Both the position numbers and the translations under genes were made by a program. Below the pieces are notes generated by a model. It did not search any database and was not told the DNA's origin. It saw only the letters and a list, made by a program, of their open reading frames with translations. 64,000 nucleotides of DNA from Trametes villosa. Taxonomy: Eukaryota; Basidiomycota; Agaricomycetes; Polyporales; Polyporaceae. The stretch covers positions 1 through 64,000 of the forward strand of contig PUDQ02000022.1 in assembly GCA_002964805.2 (NCBI GenBank), given 5' to 3'. Shown in pieces: positions 43,248 through 64,000 of the stretch (within the stretch, counting starts at the first letter, position 1; the number at the start of each line of letters is the position of its first letter).

Positions 43248-43482
43248 AGTGGCGTGTCATGAAGGACCAGGACGTTAGTCGCGTTATGTGCGTCGCGCCG
43301 GTCCTGCCCCACTATTGTATCGTTAATGTACGCGAAGCCAGAGCGCTCGGCTGATAATCTTATTACTACGTCCCTGCCCAGAGTCCCGAATGCGACCGCC
43401 GTGAGTTGTCCCGCAACTTGGCCGCAAGCTCACGCCAGTGACTGAACGAGCCCCAAGAGGCTCTTGAAGGTGAGGCCGCGGG
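43248..43482. other. Spacer after the fucosyltransferase-like gene
   Basis: 3' flank with no gene. The similarity shared with the upstream region of the second polygalacturonase gene starts just after it. Confidence 0.45.
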
Positions 43483-43811
43483 ACGGCCGGGCCGCCTCGG
43501 CTATGGAAGCACCATGCGCGACGCGCCGTGCTGCCCTCGACGACATCCTCTCCGGAACCGCGACCGTCGACGCACCTGGAGGTCATATGCTCGTCGTACC
43601 TGCCTCTCATTGGGCCAATCATGCAGCTGCCGGCAGAACTGTCCTCAGAATGTTCCTTCGAGACGGTTGCGCAGACTCAGGTGATGCTGACCGCTGAGCG
43701 GATCGACGACTCGCTTGAGCGGGCCTGAATGCACTCCTACGACGTTATAAGAGCTTCGTCGTCGCCCCTTGCACGAGGTTCTCAGCCGTCGTCCAACCCG
43801 GCTCCACGAAG
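43483..43811 (+). promoter_or_regulatory. Promoter of polygalacturonase 1, duplicated at 46330
   Basis: This block aligns over its length with 46333-46655: ccgggccgcctcggctatgg, ctgccctcgacgacatcctc, ggtcatatgctcgtcg, attgggccaa, cagactcaggtgatg, and cttgagcgggcctg. It contains a CCAAT motif (gggccaatc, about 43612) and a TATA box (gttataagagc, 43746-43750), 62-66 bp before the ATG. Sharing across the two genes marks it as functional or recently duplicated. Confidence 0.68.
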
Positions 43812-46217
43812 ATGGTCAGAATCATCCTGTCATTAGCGCTACTGACCTCCTGCGTCTCCGCCTGGAAGACGTTCGTCGTCCCGCACGTGGACGGCCAGGA
43901 CGACACGCCGGCGCTCGCGGCAGCGCTCGCCACGGGGAACTACTCAGCAAACGCGACCATCTTGTTTGCGAAGGGGACGAAGTACAACATCTTCACGCCC
44001 ATCAAGTTCCCAGTGTTCAACAACGTGGAGGTTCGCATCGAAGGGAACCTGAGCTATCCCGACGACATTGCGACCGTGCAAGGTAGGTGCACCACATTGC
44101 CGACGCCTGCTGGACTAGCTGACATAGATGTGAAATCAGGGATTGTTGGGAAATCAGTAAGTCAATGGGCGTTGGACTGGCCCGGAGTGCGGTTAACCTG
44201 TTTACTACACGTAGGGATTTCCGGGCTCGTGGTGCGTACGAGTACTACGCTAGAGCGATAGGCCCGCAACGTGGCAGGTTAGCTAACTTCGAGGCCCCCC
44301 ATACCCAGGTTCACCTTCACCGGCGGCAACAACGTGACCCTGCGGGGCTCCGAGGACCCGCAGTGGGGCTGGATAGATGGTCACGGCCAAGCTGTGAGTG
44401 TTCTACCTGAGTTCATCTACATATCATCGAATTCACAGTCGCCCCGATAGTGGTGGGATGCTCAAGAGCAAACCAACAGGCCACACGGATGGGCGTTCAG
44501 CAAAATCACCAACGGCGTAATCCGTGATATGAAGCTCTGGAAGGTGAGATTGTAGTCTCCGGTGTCAGGTTTTCTGCGCTAACGCGCTCATCACAGCCTG
44601 TAGCGTGGAACTTTGCAACGAGCGGCTCGAAGAACATCCATGCATTCAATAACCGGATCGTGGCCGTCTCTAGCACCAAGGTACGTCCTATGCGCTGCAC
44701 TTTCCTCCGCTCGCCAGTCATCCATATGCACCGTCGCAGGCATTCCCGTTCAATACGTGAGTACAGCATAAATGCGGGCATAGCGGCGACTTCTGAACAA
44801 GCGAGCTCGTTCATGCAGCGACGGTACGTCCAGTCTAAGCCGCAACGCCGGCTCCCGGTCTTATCCCGAGGCATACATCAGGTTTCTCGGCGGGCGGCAC
44901 GGACCTCGTGTTTGAGAACAACCATATTCAGAACGGGGACGACTGTTTGACGGTAGGCAGCGGGGCCAAGAACATAGTGTTCAAGTATGTGCATTGTTCA
45001 GACGTCTCCGGTATCCGATCCGATACTCAGGCTGACAACGAACGTCATTCAGAAATAGCTTCTGCGAGGGAGGCCATGGGTTGTCTATCGGCTCTCTTGG
45101 TAAAGGAGGCTCCGTCGCAGACGTCCAGAATGTCCTGTAAGTTGTCGTAAAAGATACGACACCCGCTGCTATCAGCTGAATTTCCCCACAGGATTGAGAA
45201 TGTTGTCATGGTGCGTGAGGACCCGGCAACACGCCTGCTTCGCTGCGACTGACATTCCCACGTTCTGGCAGAAAAACTCCTTGTATGCAGCTCGGTTCAA
45301 GAGCTGGACTGGCGGAAACGGTCTGGCGCGAAAGTGAGCTTGGTCCGGTGCTTCGAGGCCTCATTGTGGGCTGACACGCCACAGCGTGACTTGGAGGAAC
45401 ATCGCCTTCGACAACGTCGTGTTCCCTGTATGTATAACCTTCATACTTTGCACGGCGGGTGTCTGACGTCTGCGCCGATGCCTGTAGATCTACGTGACCC
45501 AAAAGTAAGCAGCCAACTTATGTCGAAGGTGTATCGGGTCCATCTGATTTCACGACTAGCTACTGGGACCAGAATGTACGTCGCAACTCTTCCCTCCCTA
45601 TGGTCTTTCATCTAACCCGAAGGCCTTTGACAGCTCGGCGCTCGCCCTAACGCCTCCAGCACGAACAACACGCACATCCAGGACTTCCTCTTCGAGAACT
45701 TCGTCGGGACAATCAACGAGTACGTACACTAGCAGCCGAGGTCGTCGATACTTCCCTCACGATTTCCGCCCGCAGTAAACCAGGCTACGTCGAAGGCTCC
45801 TGCGTGAGCGACCCGTGTTGGTGCGTGGGAGCCATAATGCATAAGGCACTCCCAAATTGCGCTCGCACTCATTAGTTGCTCCTAGGTTTGCCGTCCCGGG
45901 CGCGACGGGCAAAGAAGTCGCCATCCTGGACCTTTATCCGAACACAGGTACGTTTAATGTGGCTGTGGTACTGGCTCGGCTTTCCTCAACGTGCCATCCA
46001 CAGCCGCCAACGTCGTCATGAAGCACGTCCTTGCAAAGACGGCCACCGGAGCGCCGGTCAGGGTGATGTGCAATGCCTCTACTGTAAGTTGTGCCTATCC
46101 TGTGATACGCTTGCTGTATCTGCCTCTTACGATCAATCTCTGGCTCAGATCACCTCAGACGTTGGCTTCAAGTGTTGGGACGGGCTGTTCACACCCACGA
46201 GGGCTGGATGGGTGTAA
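43812..46217 (+). CDS. Exo-polygalacturonase, GH28 (copy 1)
   Basis: Twenty exons total 1275 nt, 424 aa: 43812-44082, 44140-44156, 44215-44231, 44309-44393, 44451-44543, 44597-44680, 44740-44756, 44819-44823, 44882-44984, 45053-45136, 45192-45210, 45272-45333, 45385-45427, 45488-45504, 45560-45575, 45634-45719, 45776-45820, 45886-45947, 46004-46083, 46149-46217. A signal peptide (MVRIILSLALLTSCVSA) targets it for secretion. Then come DDTPALAAAL and the parallel beta-helix. GH28 motifs are complete: FNTDGF (Asp), NGDDCLTVGSG (two Asp), GGHGLSIGSLG (His) and ARFKSW (RxK). It should release galacturonic acid from chain ends of pectin. RGSEDPQWGWIDGHGQAWWDAQ is typical of exo-acting members. Many exons are 16-19 nt and one is 5 nt. 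A tandem paralogue follows. Confidence 0.92.
44819..44823 (+). other. 5-nt microexon with the catalytic Asp codon (GH28 copy 1)
   Basis: The exon is cgacg. The upstream exon ends ..AATAC before gtgagt (44757) and the downstream exon begins GTTTCTCG after catcag (44881). Splicing gives AAT-AC|C-GAC-G|GT: Asn-Thr-Asp-Gly. Flanking introns are 62 and 58 nt. Omitting it shifts frame and removes the NTDG catalytic Asp. Confidence 0.82.
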
Positions 46218-46329
46218 CCCAATGAATACCAGTCTCGAACTCCAACTGAATGCGACTACTGTGAATCGTGCCGCAAACTTGGCAGGCCTACCGAACGTGC
46301 TCAGAGTCAAGGAGGCTTAAGGTGGGGCG
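46218..46329. other. Short 3' flank between the polygalacturonase genes
   Basis: 3' region of copy 1. Nothing else is seen before the duplicated promoter block begins. Confidence 0.45.
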
Positions 46330-46655
46330 GCGGAACCGCCGGGCCGCCTCGGCTATGGAAGCACCATACGGGACGCGCCGTTCTGCCCTCGACGACATCC
46401 TCTCCCGAACCGCAACACTCATAGAGGTCATATGCTCGTCGCACCTGCCTATCATTGGGCCAAATGTGCAGCTTCCGGCAGCACTGTATTCAAAACGTTC
46501 CCTTAAGATGTTTGTACAGACTCAGGTGATGTTGGCCGCTGAGCTGATCGACGAGCTTGAGCGGGCCTGTTGAGCGCACTCCTACGACGCTATAAGAGCT
46601 TCCTCGTTGCGCGGTATACAAGGTTTCCAGCCTTCGCCTGGCCAGTCTCTACAGG
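46330..46655 (+). promoter_or_regulatory. Promoter of polygalacturonase 2
   Basis: Counterpart of 43483-43811 with the same ordered blocks. The TATA box (ctataagagc, 46591-46595) is 61-65 bp before the ATG. The CCAAT motif of copy 1 reads gggccaaat here, so it has lost the consensus. Confidence 0.66.
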
Positions 46656-49061
46656 ATGCGCGGGATCTTTTTATCGCTAGCACTGCTGACTTCCTACGTC
46701 TTCGCCTGGACGACGTTCGTCGTCCCGCATGCAGACGGACAGGATGACACGCCGGCACTTACAGCTGCGCTCGCTACGACGAACTACTCGGAAGACACAA
46801 CTATCCTGTTTGCGAAGGGAACGAAGTACAACATCTTCACGCCCGTCAAGTTCCCCGCCTTTAACAACGTGGAGGTCCGCATCGAAGGAAACTTGAGTTA
46901 TCCCGACGACATTGCTACCGTGCAAGGTGGGTACACTACAAGGCCGACGGCACTCTAGCGTTGCTGATGCATATGCGAACTAAGGGATTGTCGGGAATTC
47001 AGTGAGTTAGCGGACATTGGTCGAATTGAGTGCAGTTGACCTATTTACCGCATGCAGGACTTCCCGGGAGCATGGTGCGTCTGAAAATCACGGGGAGGGC
47101 CGGCTTTACGACGCAGGCAAGCTAACCTCGAGGTTTATCGCACCCAGGTTTACTTTCGCCGGCGGTAACAACGTGACGCTGCAGGGCTCCGAGGATCCGC
47201 AGTGGGGGTGGGTGGATGGTCATGGTCAAGCTGTACGTTTTCTCGCTGCGTTCATGCACCATACATATTCAAAGCCGCTCCGAAAGTGGTGGGATGCTCA
47301 AGAGCAAACCAACCGGCCACACGGATGGGCATTCAGCAAAATCACCAACGGCGTCATCCGTGACATGAAGATCTGGAAGGTGAGCCTTTAATATGATACA
47401 TATGACGCTTTTTGCTCTAAGATGGTCATCACAGCCGATAGCATGGAACTTCGCGACAAGCGGCTCAAAGAACATCCATGTGTTCAAGAACCGGATCGTG
47501 GCCGTCTCTAACACCAAGGTATTATGCGCTGCACTACTCTCCTCCAACCGGTCGTTCACACGTTCTGTTGTAGGCGTTCCCATTCAATACGTGAGTACGA
47601 CCTGTGCGAGCATAGTAACGACTTTATAATAACCGAACCTACCCCACATAGCGACGGTACGTCTATGCTAGGCCGCAACACCAACACCTGTTCTCGCTGC
47701 TGAGGCATACGCCAGGTTTCTCGGCGGGCGGTGGCACGGACCTTATCTTCGAGAACAATCATGTCCAGAACGGGGACGACTGTCTCATGGTGGGTAGTGG
47801 CGCAAAGAACATAGTGTTCAAGTATGTGCATCTCTCAGCTATGTCAGTCCTTCGCTACTGACAAAGCGAGCGTCGATTAGGAATAGTATCTGCGAGGGGA
47901 GCCACGGGTTGTCTATCGGCTCTCTTGGCAATGGCGGGTCCGTCGGAGACGTTCAGAATGTCCTGTAAGCTCATCGAAAGAGGGAACCCTTCTCAATCCG
48001 CTCAACTTTCCCACAGGTTTGAGAATGTTGTCATGGTGCGCGTAGACCGGGAACCGGTTGTCCTCGCCTGCGACTGATATCTCCACTGCGAGGCAGAAAA
48101 ACACTCTGTACGCTGCTCGATTCAAGAGCTGGACAGGCGGTAACGGTCTCGCGCGAAAGTGAGCTAGGTTCCGCAGTCCGAGACCACTTCATGGGCTGAC
48201 ATGCCATAGCGTGACCTGGAGGAACATCGCCTTCGACAATGTGGTGTTGCCGGTACGCACACAATCCTTCGCGCTTCACATAACGGATAGAATCTGACGT
48301 TTTCGCCGATGCCTACAGATCTATGTGACCCAGAAGTAAGTGGACAGTCTACGGCGTGATTGCGTCGAGTCCGCCTGATGTCGAAATTAGCTATTGGGAC
48401 CAGTCTGTTCGTCGTAGCCGTTGCCGCTCTATGGTCTTCTATCTCAACCAAACTTCTATGATAGCTCGGCCCTCGCCCCAACGCTTCGAGCGTGAACAAC
48501 ACGCACATTCAGGACTTCCTCTTCGAGAACTTCGTCGGAACAATCAACGAGTGCGTACACTGGCGGCCGAGCTCGCCGATGCTCCTCTGACGATTTCCGC
48601 CCACAGTAAGCCAGGCTACGTTGAAGGCTCCTGCGTGAGCGACCCGTGTTGGTGCGTCGAAGCCACGATGCAGAATATCCTCCCAGATCGCGCTCGGACT
48701 GATTTGTTGCTCCTAGGTTTGCCGTCCCGGGAGCGACGGGCAAAGAAGTCGCTATCTTGGACCTCTATCCCAACACCGGTTCGTCGTCTAGGTCTATCTA
48801 GGCAGTAGAGTTGGCGCAGCTCGTCTCACGACGCCGGTTATTCACAGCCGTCAACGTCGTGGTGAAGCACGTCCTTGCAAAGACAGACACCGGGGCGCCA
48901 GTGAGGGTGATGTGCAACGCCTCCACCGTAAGTTATGTCCATATTGTCGTGCACTTGTTGTATTTGGTTCTTACGATGGATTTCTGGGTCAGATCAACTC
49001 CGACGTTGGCTTCAAGTGTTGGGACGGGCTGTTTGTACCTACGAGGGCTGGATGGACGTAG
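46656..49061 (+). CDS. Exo-polygalacturonase, GH28 (copy 2)
   Basis: All twenty exons of copy 1 are present, totalling 1278 nt, 425 aa: 46656-46926, 46985-47001, 47058-47074, 47148-47232, 47287-47379, 47435-47518, 47574-47590, 47653-47657, 47716-47821, 47881-47964, 48017-48035, 48097-48158, 48210-48252, 48319-48335, 48391-48406, 48465-48550, 48608-48652, 48717-48778, 48848-48927, 48993-49061. Exon sizes equal copy 1 except one exon that is 3 nt longer (an extra Gly in FSAGGGTD). The signal peptide is MRGIFLSLALLTSYVFA. The catalytic set is intact: NTDGF, NGDDCLMVGSG, GSHGLSIGSLG (canonical SHG where copy 1 has GHG) and ARFKSW. A secreted pectinase, probably with overlapping specificity. No stop or broken splice site was found, so both copies look functional. 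Confidence 0.92.
47653..47657 (+). other. 5-nt microexon with the catalytic Asp codon (GH28 copy 2)
   Basis: The same cgacg exon lies between ccacatag and gtacgtc, with flanking introns of 62 and 58 nt exactly as in copy 1. It again encodes the Asp of NTDG. Confidence 0.82.
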
Positions 49062-60446: not shown

Positions 60447-62567
60447 TCAGTCAACCCAGATAGGCTCCCCGACGTACTGCGCCTTGGGCTTGTACGGCCC
60501 GTCCTTGAGGCCCTCGGTCTCCATGCGCAGCTTCACGCTCCGGTGCACATAGAACGGCTCGTGGTGCTTCGGCACGACGCGCCCATGGCCCAGGTTCATC
60601 CTGTACAACCCAGCATCAGCCTTCCCACCCTCGCAGACACCCAACGTCACATAAGAGCGAACACTCACGAGACGACGTGCATCTCCTTATGCTCCGGCGC
60701 GGGGCCCTGCCACCTGCGCTTCATCGGCAGGATCTCGAGCGCCCACCAGTACGGCGCGAGCGCGAGCTGGTCGTACGCCGGGCACAGCGCGTCGCGCACC
60801 TCGTGCTCCTCCTCCGTCGTCAGCGGCACCGGCGGCGCGACGCTCGCGAGGTGCAGCGCCGGCTGCGGCTGCAGCGCCGGCGGGCGCTCGAGCACGACCG
60901 GGTGCAGCGCGGCGGGGTCGAGCCCGATGCGCTTCAGGAGCTCGCCGTGGAAGCGGATGCCCGTGTTCGTCTTGAAGCACTCGCGGATCATCCACCGCAG
61001 CGGGATGCGCGCGAGCGTGTGCTGGACGTCGTCCGCGACGGACCCGCCACCGACGTCTGTGGGTGTTGTCAGCTGTGCTACGGTAGAACGTGCAAAGGAG
61101 CGCGGACGCACCACAGTGGCATCCGGCGAACCAGACCTCGAGCACGTCGGTTGTACCGTCCGAGCCCGGGTCGCTCGCGTTGAACTGGCGCTCCAACTTG
61201 CGCTGCTTCGCCCACTCGCTGTCGGTCTTCTTGTGGCCGGGCCTGTTGCTGCTGCCTTTCCCGTCGCCGTCCGTCCGGATTCCGACGCGCGTTGCGTACT
61301 CTGTGTCCCGCTTGGGCATGTCCCCCGGCTGGGTGCCGCGCGAGGCCTGGCGTTTCGTGGGGTGCTGGTAGAGATTCGGCTGGAAGCGCGCACGGTGCTC
61401 GTCCAGGGAAAGCGCGTGCCGGAAGACGCGGATCGCGCGGTTGGAGGACGTGAATGGAAGCGTGTGCGGGATCACGCCGACGGACGAGACGGTGTCCCTG
61501 AGGTATAGAAGAGTGAGAATGGGCGCAGCGCGGCGCATCGGGGGGAGGCACCCACCAAACGCCGATGAAGTCAATGTCGACGTCGATACAGAAGGCCTTC
61601 TTGAACGCGGTGGACTGCTTCCAGCCCTGATCGTCGTCGCGCGTGAACATCTTGTACGCGAAGGGGACCTGTTGGTGGTTACAGGCAGGGAGCAATCCAA
61701 CCTGAGTACCGAAGGCCACCATAAGCAACGTATTCAAGGAAAGCTGTTCCCTGTGGAGCTTACTTTGTGAACCATTCCGGCAAGAGCGCGGGCAGTGTAT
61801 GCGCCGCGCGAGAAGCCAAGGATGCATATTTTGTCGCCAGCTTGGTCTGTAGCACGAATAGGTGAGTTGAATGAAGCATCTGTAGCCATAACCCGCCCAT
61901 GCGCGACGTACAGTTTTGCATGAGGAATTCGTACCCGCCTAAGGTTGGCACACAATCAGCATGTTGAAGTGGCGTTGTAGAATAATCTGCCACGAACCTT
62001 GTACGTGGGACCGGAGGTTCCACGCAATCATCTCGTCAAGGAGCTTGTCTACCTTTGCCTTGAGTGGCGTAGCTGCTTGTGGCGTCGTGTAGGTCCCGAT
62101 GCCAGACTATCATAGGCGAATGTCAGTGACGTCTCGAGTACAAAACCACATGGTACTAAGAGTTTCTTACCTGGTAGTAGACCATTTGCTCGTTACGGTC
62201 GTCCTTCTTCAGCATACTGAAGAACGCGATGACATTCGAGTTCTACAAACATTAGTTAGTTAAACGAGCATGGTGCAAAGGCAGAAATCACAACGCGTAC
62301 ATCGGTATTGAACTGGTCGCCCGTCCCGTCGAAGCAAAGGACGAGGGTGCGTGCGGGATGGAACGGCGGGACAATATCCATGTCACCGGTCTCGCTAGAC
62401 GAAGAGTGCTCGGCTGAGACGGGTGGCGAGCCCGTTTTGCCGGTCGACCCGTAGTGCGTTGTTTTGCCATCCCAGGTCGAGAACGGGGACTGGTCGACGG
62501 CGGTGGACCCCGACGGCTGGGGCGAGTGCATCGCGGGGGCCTGAGCTTGAGGTGGCGTAGAGGACAT
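60447..62567 (-). CDS. DUF2235 alpha/beta-hydrolase (Tle1-like phospholipase domain), copy 1
   Basis: Nine exons (62567-62301, 62242-62171, 62106-61998, 61938-61912, 61846-61764, 61701-61556, 61497-61112, 61056-60669, 60600-60447) join to 1632 nt, 543 aa. The N-terminal 65 residues are Pro/Ser/Thr-rich and disordered. The DUF2235 domain starts RTLVLCFDGTGDQFNTD. It continues with SGIGTY, the nucleophile elbow CILGFSRGAYTARALAGMV (GxSxG), FIGVWDTVSSVG and later a Cys/His run GCHCDVGGGS that carries the usual HxDVGGG catalytic-acid loop. The C-terminal region (WMIRECFKTNTGIRFH) is characteristic of fungal members. The domain is that of bacterial type VI Tle1 phospholipases, and fungal homologues are presumed lipolytic. 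A TATA box (minus strand, 62621-62626) lies about 55 bp upstream. A tandem paralogue is at 63334. Confidence 0.9.
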
Positions 62568-63333: not shown

Positions 63334-64000
63334 TCAGTCAACCCAGGTAGGCTCTCTGACATAGCGCGCCATAGGCGCATACGGTCCACCCGGCAACCCC
63401 TTCGCCTCCATGCGCAGCTTGACACTCCGGTGCACGAAGAACGGCTCGCCGCGCTCCGGCACCAGGCGTCCATTGCCCCTGTTCATCCTATACATAACCC
63501 AGCGCCCATGAGCAACACCGTCTCTGCCAACAGAGCACAAATGGAAAACTTACACCCTCTTCTTGGCCTCCGGGGGCCCCTGCGCGGGTTGCAGCATCGG
63601 CAAATACTCCATGGACACCCACTTATACCACGCCAGGTCGAGCTGGTCATACTTCGGGCTCAGCGCGTCCCGCACCTCGTGCTCTTCCTCCGTCGACAGG
63701 GGCGCCTTGAGGGCCGCGCCTACCAGGTAGCTCGAGTGCGGCACGAGCGGCGGCGGGCGGTCTGCAACGCGCGGATGCAGCGTCGCGGGGTCGATTCCGA
63801 TGGCTCTCAGGGACTTGCCGTGGAAGCGGATGCCGGTGTTCGTCTTGAAGCACTCGCGCACCATCCACCGGAGGGGGATGCGCGCGAGCGTGTGCGGCAC
63901 TTTGTTCCCGACCGAGCCCCCGCCGACGTCTAACCCCAAGCGAGAAACGTTGAGCAAGCGACGCAACGCAAGAATCCTAGTACAGGACGCACCGCAGTGG
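63334..64000 (-). CDS. DUF2235 hydrolase, copy 2 (truncated by the window end)
   Basis: Only the 3' part is in the window: an 8-nt piece of an exon (64000-63993), then 63929-63554 and 63487-63334. It encodes DVGGGSVGNKVPHTLARIP, WMVRECFKTNTGIRFHGKSL, STEEEHEVRDALSPKYDQLDLAWY and the C-terminus RYVREPTWVD. Each matches copy 1 (DVGGGSVADDVQHTLARIP, WMIRECFKTNTGIRFHGELL, TTEEEHEVRDALCPAYDQL, QYVGEPIWVD). Intron positions and phases are identical to copy 1. The catalytic domain with the GxSxG lies beyond the window, so integrity cannot be judged. Tandem orientation shows duplication of the whole gene. Confidence 0.88.

Follow-up and report, generated by a model that had tools for sequence, protein, structure and literature searches.

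The GH28 gene at positions 43812-46217 of the window (the whole 64-kb stretch of DNA that was analysed) and its tandem duplicate very probably contain a constitutive coding micro-exon of only 5 nt. The genes are intron-rich polypore GH28 genes of predicted exo-type, the micro-exon is in both tandem copies, and the arrangement is probably ancestral to Agaricales and Polyporales. We favour the constitutive reading because the exon is identical in the two copies despite their diverged introns and because the pair is under purifying selection. Since the micro-exon carries the catalytic Asp, the pair provides a clean case, outside plants and animals, of two tandem genes that each rely on a 5-nt exon for a catalytic residue. 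The features discussed below are as follows.

43812-46217, + strand: GH28 gene copy 1, from ATG to stop; 20 exons, 424 aa, PF00295
44740-44756, + strand: copy 1 exon 7, 17 nt, encoding A-F-P-F-N-T (up to AC of the Thr codon)
44757-44818, + strand: copy 1 intron 7, 62 nt, phase 2, GTGAGT..GCAG; the retained form has TGA right after Asn-Thr
44819-44823, + strand: copy 1 exon 8, the micro-exon CGACG, 5 nt, containing the Asp codon
44824-44881, + strand: copy 1 intron 8, 58 nt, phase 1, GTACGT..TCAG; donor rank 3 of 38, acceptor rank 28 of 38
44882-44984, + strand: copy 1 exon 9, beginning GT TTC and including NGDDC
46656-49061, + strand: GH28 gene copy 2, the tandem duplicate, with the same 20-exon structure, 425 aa
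47591-47651, + strand: copy 2 intron 7, 61 nt
47652-47656, + strand: copy 2 exon 8, the micro-exon CGACG
47657-47715, + strand: copy 2 intron 8, 59 nt

Copy 1 was rebuilt exon by exon, which gave a coding sequence of 1275 nt from 20 exons with GT..AG ends at all 19 introns. The NTDG motif was spread over exons 7 to 9 (AAT AC / C GAC G / GT), and the Asp codon GAC lay entirely within exon 8, a very short internal exon of 5 nt with canonical GT..AG introns on either side. The rebuild thus confirmed what the first-pass annotation had proposed, namely a 5-nt exon with the complete Asp codon, a total of 1275 nt in 20 exons, and GT..AG ends of both flanking introns. Its view that 5 nt is close to the lower limit of exon size was too strong, as 1-nt exons have been published (PMC4674806, PMC12940212). 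Other tiny exons of 17, 17, 17, 19, 17, and 16 nt were found in copy 1, and the 5-nt exon is the extreme case in a gene chopped into small pieces. Micro-exons of 16-17 nt were also noted as exons 2, 3, 14, and 15 of copy 1 (44140-44231 and 45488-45575), and these are kept in the tandem copy. A bacterial promoter scan gave nothing informative.

The translations of copies 1 and 2 matched PF00295 with scores of 157.5 and 148.8 bits, respectively (cut-off 22.9), and both contained the catalytic motifs NTDGF, NGDDC, GHGLS, and RFKSW. The NTDG of both copies aligned with the NTDG of solved GH28 enzymes. This alignment, together with the precedent of D180, which is required for catalysis in Aspergillus niger PGII (PMC8952511), agrees with the catalytic role assigned earlier to the Asp. 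Names among the listed relatives included galacturonan 1,4-alpha-galacturonidase and exopolygalacturonase C, and the pair is predicted to be of exo-type from these names only.

Besides the pair, nine places in the genome matched PF00295 (E up to 10; five of them only above 0.001). Motif search and reading located NTDG within one exon at six of these (L009, L010, L011, L042, L043, and L044) and found no motif at L045 and L046. At the remaining place, L012, a single 55-nt intron (2315-2369) split the Asp codon itself (g/at), at a site 2 nt downstream of the intron-7 position in the window genes. Because six other loci have a one-exon NTDG, the micro-exon appears to be a trait of the clade of the window genes and not of the GH28 family. 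Furthermore, the one-exon NTDG at six loci and the single intron of L012 suggest that introns entered NTDG more than once, or moved.

Copy 2 was absent from the first-pass annotation. Its exon 8 was identical to that of copy 1 (5/5), and the two genes lie in a direct tandem repeat of ~2.84 kb (46319-49061 versus 43467-46217) that includes ~350 bases upstream of the gene, with 74-91% identity 5' of the start codons. The exons of the two copies agreed at 1107 of 1275 positions and the intron interiors at 647 of 916; for introns 7 and 8 the interior identities were 31/51 and 33/49, respectively. With a dN of 0.056 and a dS of 0.566 (dN/dS ~0.1), purifying selection acts on the gene pair. A second tandem pair was observed at 60447-61058 and 63334-63931, with a spacing of ~2.88 kb and 77-81% identity in pieces.

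A protein search found 386 homologues, and motifs were counted on the 120 that were listed, among which those of Cubamyces and Trametes were closest. A clean NTDG was present in 90 of the 120 listed homologues and missing from 30, and the aligned column held Asp in 99 and another residue in 21. NGDDC and RFKSW were kept in all 120, and HGLS was broken in none of them. When 24 conserved 4-mers were compared, breaks were most frequent in six (12-24 rows), each overlapping exons 7 to 9, and the other 18 were broken in at most 4 rows of the 120 listed homologues. Insertions were also common at the border of exons 6 and 7 (16 and 19 rows) and in exon 16 (10 and 12 rows); annotation error or natural length variation apparently extends beyond the micro-exon site.

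Signatures of read-through into the flanking introns were scored in 201 homologous proteins, 57 of which stop short of the site. Where FxFNT lacked the following D, it was followed by Tyr, Cys, or the protein end in 14 of 19 cases, as a GT[AG] donor predicts; of these 14 proteins, three stop at FPFNT, eight have FNTY, and three have FNTC, which fits read-through of AAT AC/GT[AG]. Likewise, a residue other than Thr before DGF at the site was Ser or Arg in 6/6 cases, as AG/N GAY G predicts (a seventh match to the DGF pattern, in P0090, was dropped, being located elsewhere in the protein). NTDG was followed by Thr, Met, or Asn in five proteins, as a GTA donor (G/GTA) predicts. P0193 had a 19-residue insert between T and D, corresponding to an intron-sized 57 nt, with DGF joined behind it, and P0111 had 14 residues and a split codon (45 nt, again intron-sized) inserted after NTDG. 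Some broken rows, e.g., P0046, P0058, and P0102, were misfits to read-through. Binomial values treat related rows as independent and are rough; P0099 and P0105, for example, are one species with the same tail. In the models P0121 and P0132 (Termitomyces and Arthromyces), FPFNT ran straight into exon 10. In copy 1, exons 8 and 9 add up to 108 nt, and loss of both leaves the frame intact; dropping them would hide the annotation error in these two models with the frame kept.

Signs of read-through were seen in genera that we take to be Polyporales, e.g., Steccherinum, Grifola, Cerrena, and Epithele, and in presumed Agaricales, e.g., Marasmius, Lyophyllum, Hypsizygus, and Moniliophthora. Because many of the mispredicted residues fit read-through of the flanking introns, the split motif is probably common to Agaricales and Polyporales. 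Twelve rows among the listed homologues were assigned by us, on assumed order membership, to Boletales and Hymenochaetales. Broken rows numbered 0/12 in these orders versus 30/94 among the other named rows (Fisher p 0.018; rows not independent). Since no break occurred in the 12 rows, the split arrangement may be absent from Boletales and Hymenochaetales, which is suggestive only.

Homologues known from jgi/lgn contigs only read NTDGF in 14/14 cases among the 120 listed, although these rows are a biased sample in that ORFs from defective transcripts are shorter and fall outside the length limits of the search. Broken rows accordingly numbered 0/14 versus 30/106 in the rest (p 0.020; rows not independent, with length bias). 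P0016 fills its 1341-nt contig except for 72 nt, and two introns of such size do not fit; in 9/14 cases the spare contig is at most 586 nt, below the 969 nt of 19 introns of 51 nt. Other proteins from such contigs, e.g., P0149, terminate where exon 1 runs on into an intron. Such endings suggest that the ORF caller used on the jgi/lgn contigs works without splicing. Because it seems not to splice, the 14 contig proteins probably derive from mRNA or else from genes devoid of these introns; in relatives, the genes behind the contig proteins may be missing one or both introns. We infer the inclusion of the micro-exon in Trametes villosa from its sequence, and its occurrence in further species on the basis of contig ORFs and protein models.

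All 38 introns of the gene pair are 51-77 nt long, including introns 7 and 8 (62 and 58 nt in copy 1, 61 and 59 nt in copy 2). On splice-site scores derived from the same gene pair that was ranked, the intron-8 donors (ACG/GTACGT) were ranked 2 and 3 of 38 and their acceptors 26 and 28, which is weak. The intron-7 donors (TAC/GTGAGT) were ranked 33 and 34 of 38 and their acceptors 3 and 11, which is good. Retention of intron 7 gives a stop directly after NT in both copies. We propose that two short introns, each of the usual length for the gene, lie 5 nt apart inside the conserved NTDG, and that introns 7 and 8 would be taken out successively as normal units by intron definition. The tiny exon would then need no recognition of its own, and simultaneous binding of both splice sites would be unnecessary. 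Intron 8 would be removed first and intron 7 later, an order favoured by the strong intron-8 donor and by published plant data: around plant micro-exons, removal of the downstream intron tends to precede that of the upstream one, which is detained (PMC8831610), and the splicing order of potato invertase, as cited in PMC4674806, is invoked for downstream-first removal. Failure to remove intron 7 would lead to an immediate stop and no enzyme. The gene pair also provides a compact system for testing how fungi with short introns splice exons that cannot accommodate two bound splice sites simultaneously.

Splice paths were enumerated by allowing at most two introns, each 20-200 nt long. Copy 1 gave 8598 paths and copy 2 gave 3947, of which 184 and 96, respectively, were in frame to the exon 9 end. 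NTDGF arose from one path per copy (1/8598 and 1/3947), which was the proposed path. A few further in-frame paths contained NTDG by reading into intron 8, with extra residues after the motif. The first-pass annotation had named a different splice path giving NTDG as what would overturn its model, and the enumeration left NTDGF to the proposed path alone. Use of a later intron-8 donor, by which NTDG is followed by extra residues, is indeed available in frame in both copies. However, it would add residues to a motif that is NTDGF in 99/201 homologous proteins and in 14/14 contig proteins, and the GTACGT donor directly behind CGACG is among the best of the gene pair; we consider this path highly improbable. 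The possibility that NTDG results from wishful splicing of a chance pattern or a decayed gene could appeal to the fact that no transcript was seen for the gene pair, but it is opposed by the dN/dS of ~0.1 with 20 matching exons, by the Pfam match over the full length, and by shuffling. In dinucleotide shuffles of the 125-nt stretch, scored for the pattern AG-NGAYG-GT with both introns at least 40 nt, a suitable 5-nt exon appeared in 23/20,000 and 9/20,000 for copies 1 and 2, respectively, i.e., ~0.1% or less, and a pseudogene is a practically negligible explanation. In the 64-kb window the same pattern occurred twice on the + strand (once per gene) and three times on the - strand.

The first-pass annotation had further proposed that regulated skipping of the 5-nt exon acts as an on/off control of pectinase output. 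As it had stated, skipping removes the Asp and shifts the frame, with a stop after 205 aa in copy 1; in copy 2 the stop comes after 221 aa. There are also plant precedents (PMC3340406): cold leads to skipping of the mini-exon in potato invertase, and in Agave the mini-exon is missing from an EST of a fructosyltransferase. Against the proposal, the skip signature, tested with all four glycine codons, was found in 0/201 homologous proteins (57 of them not reaching the site), and a search with the skip product itself returned 82 relatives, none with the signature. Furthermore, the skip intron would be 125 nt, outside the 51-77 nt of the 38 introns of the pair. P0058 was considered as a skip product and rejected, as it matches the loosest pattern only (FNT then Leu) and its downstream reading is unlike skipping. 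Abundant skipping in relatives is unlikely, and the proposed on/off control, which these results do not bear out, is very unlikely. The side product hinted at by relatives is instead a transcript that keeps the upstream intron. On an lgn contig of 2425 nt, the ORF P0130 has exons 1-7 without an insert and then YVLPES, resembling an intron-7-retained product. Slow or regulated removal of intron 7, with a retained form ending ...FPFNT, could thus limit output, and the weak intron-7 donors with a stop after NT in both copies, the 57-nt insert of P0193 with DGF joined behind it, and the more frequent detention of the upstream intron at plant micro-exons (PMC8831610) are in line with this. On the other hand, P0193 could be genomic sequence from a gene that has fewer introns, each case comes from a single contig, and the intron-7 acceptors are good, so that we regard such a limitation as rather unlikely. 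A splicing checkpoint, in which intron 7 is held back or regulated, only fully spliced mRNA gives the Asp-containing enzyme, and the arrangement has been maintained throughout mushroom-forming fungi as post-transcriptional control of pectin digestion, is a more speculative and unlikely extension. Constitutive inclusion of the micro-exon remains our preferred reading.

The practical consequence is the clearest: when orthologues are annotated automatically, the Asp is often missed, and the enzyme then looks broken. A survey of fungal GH28 discarded ascomycete sequences without D180 as non-functional (PMC8952511). The same filter on mushroom genomes would drop genes that are probably active; the other catalytic motifs are intact in relatives lacking the Asp.

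In GH32 invertases, the catalytic nucleophile is the Asp of the DPN sequence. The 9-nt mini-exon of plant GH32 acid invertases, which encodes D-P-N of NDPNG, is likewise a micro-exon that falls within a glycoside hydrolase's active-site motif; it is conserved across a lineage, and annotations often omit it (PMC8831610, PMC4579127, PMC3340406). However, skipping of that 9-nt exon keeps the frame, whereas the exon in the window is 5 nt, shifts the frame, and belongs to GH28 in another kingdom. The GH1 gene bglA of Sirobasidium magnum, also a basidiomycete glycosidase gene, has a smallest exon of 5 bp, with its exons set against cDNA (PMC9142197 Table 3); it belongs to a different family, and the available part of that report states no tie of the exon to a catalytic residue and no conservation survey. 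In Arabidopsis APC11 and Fusarium CYP621A, constitutive exons of 1 nt, which gene models miss, preserve the frame of a conserved motif (PMC4674806, PMC12940212); they are shorter than the exon in the window but do not supply a catalytic residue of a secreted hydrolase. Within Polyporales, P450 genes of Phanerochaete chrysosporium have short introns and exons as small as 6 bp, in another family and, in the portion of the paper at hand, with no single catalytic residue assigned to them (PMC1184071). A fungal micro-exon that controls plant-cell-wall degradation is found in Xlr2 of Trichoderma virens, but Xlr2 is a transcription factor and the inclusion of its micro-exon is regulated by glucose (PMC11121469), whereas the present case concerns the enzyme gene itself. 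Among the titles found in openly licensed literature, none described a micro-exon in GH28. Taken together, exons of 1-6 nt in fungi and plants (PMC12940212, PMC4674806, PMC1184071, PMC9142197) and an active-site mini-exon in a glycosidase, classic in plant invertases (PMC4579127, PMC3340406, PMC8831610), were already known, and what is new here is a well-defined GH28 case of such exons.
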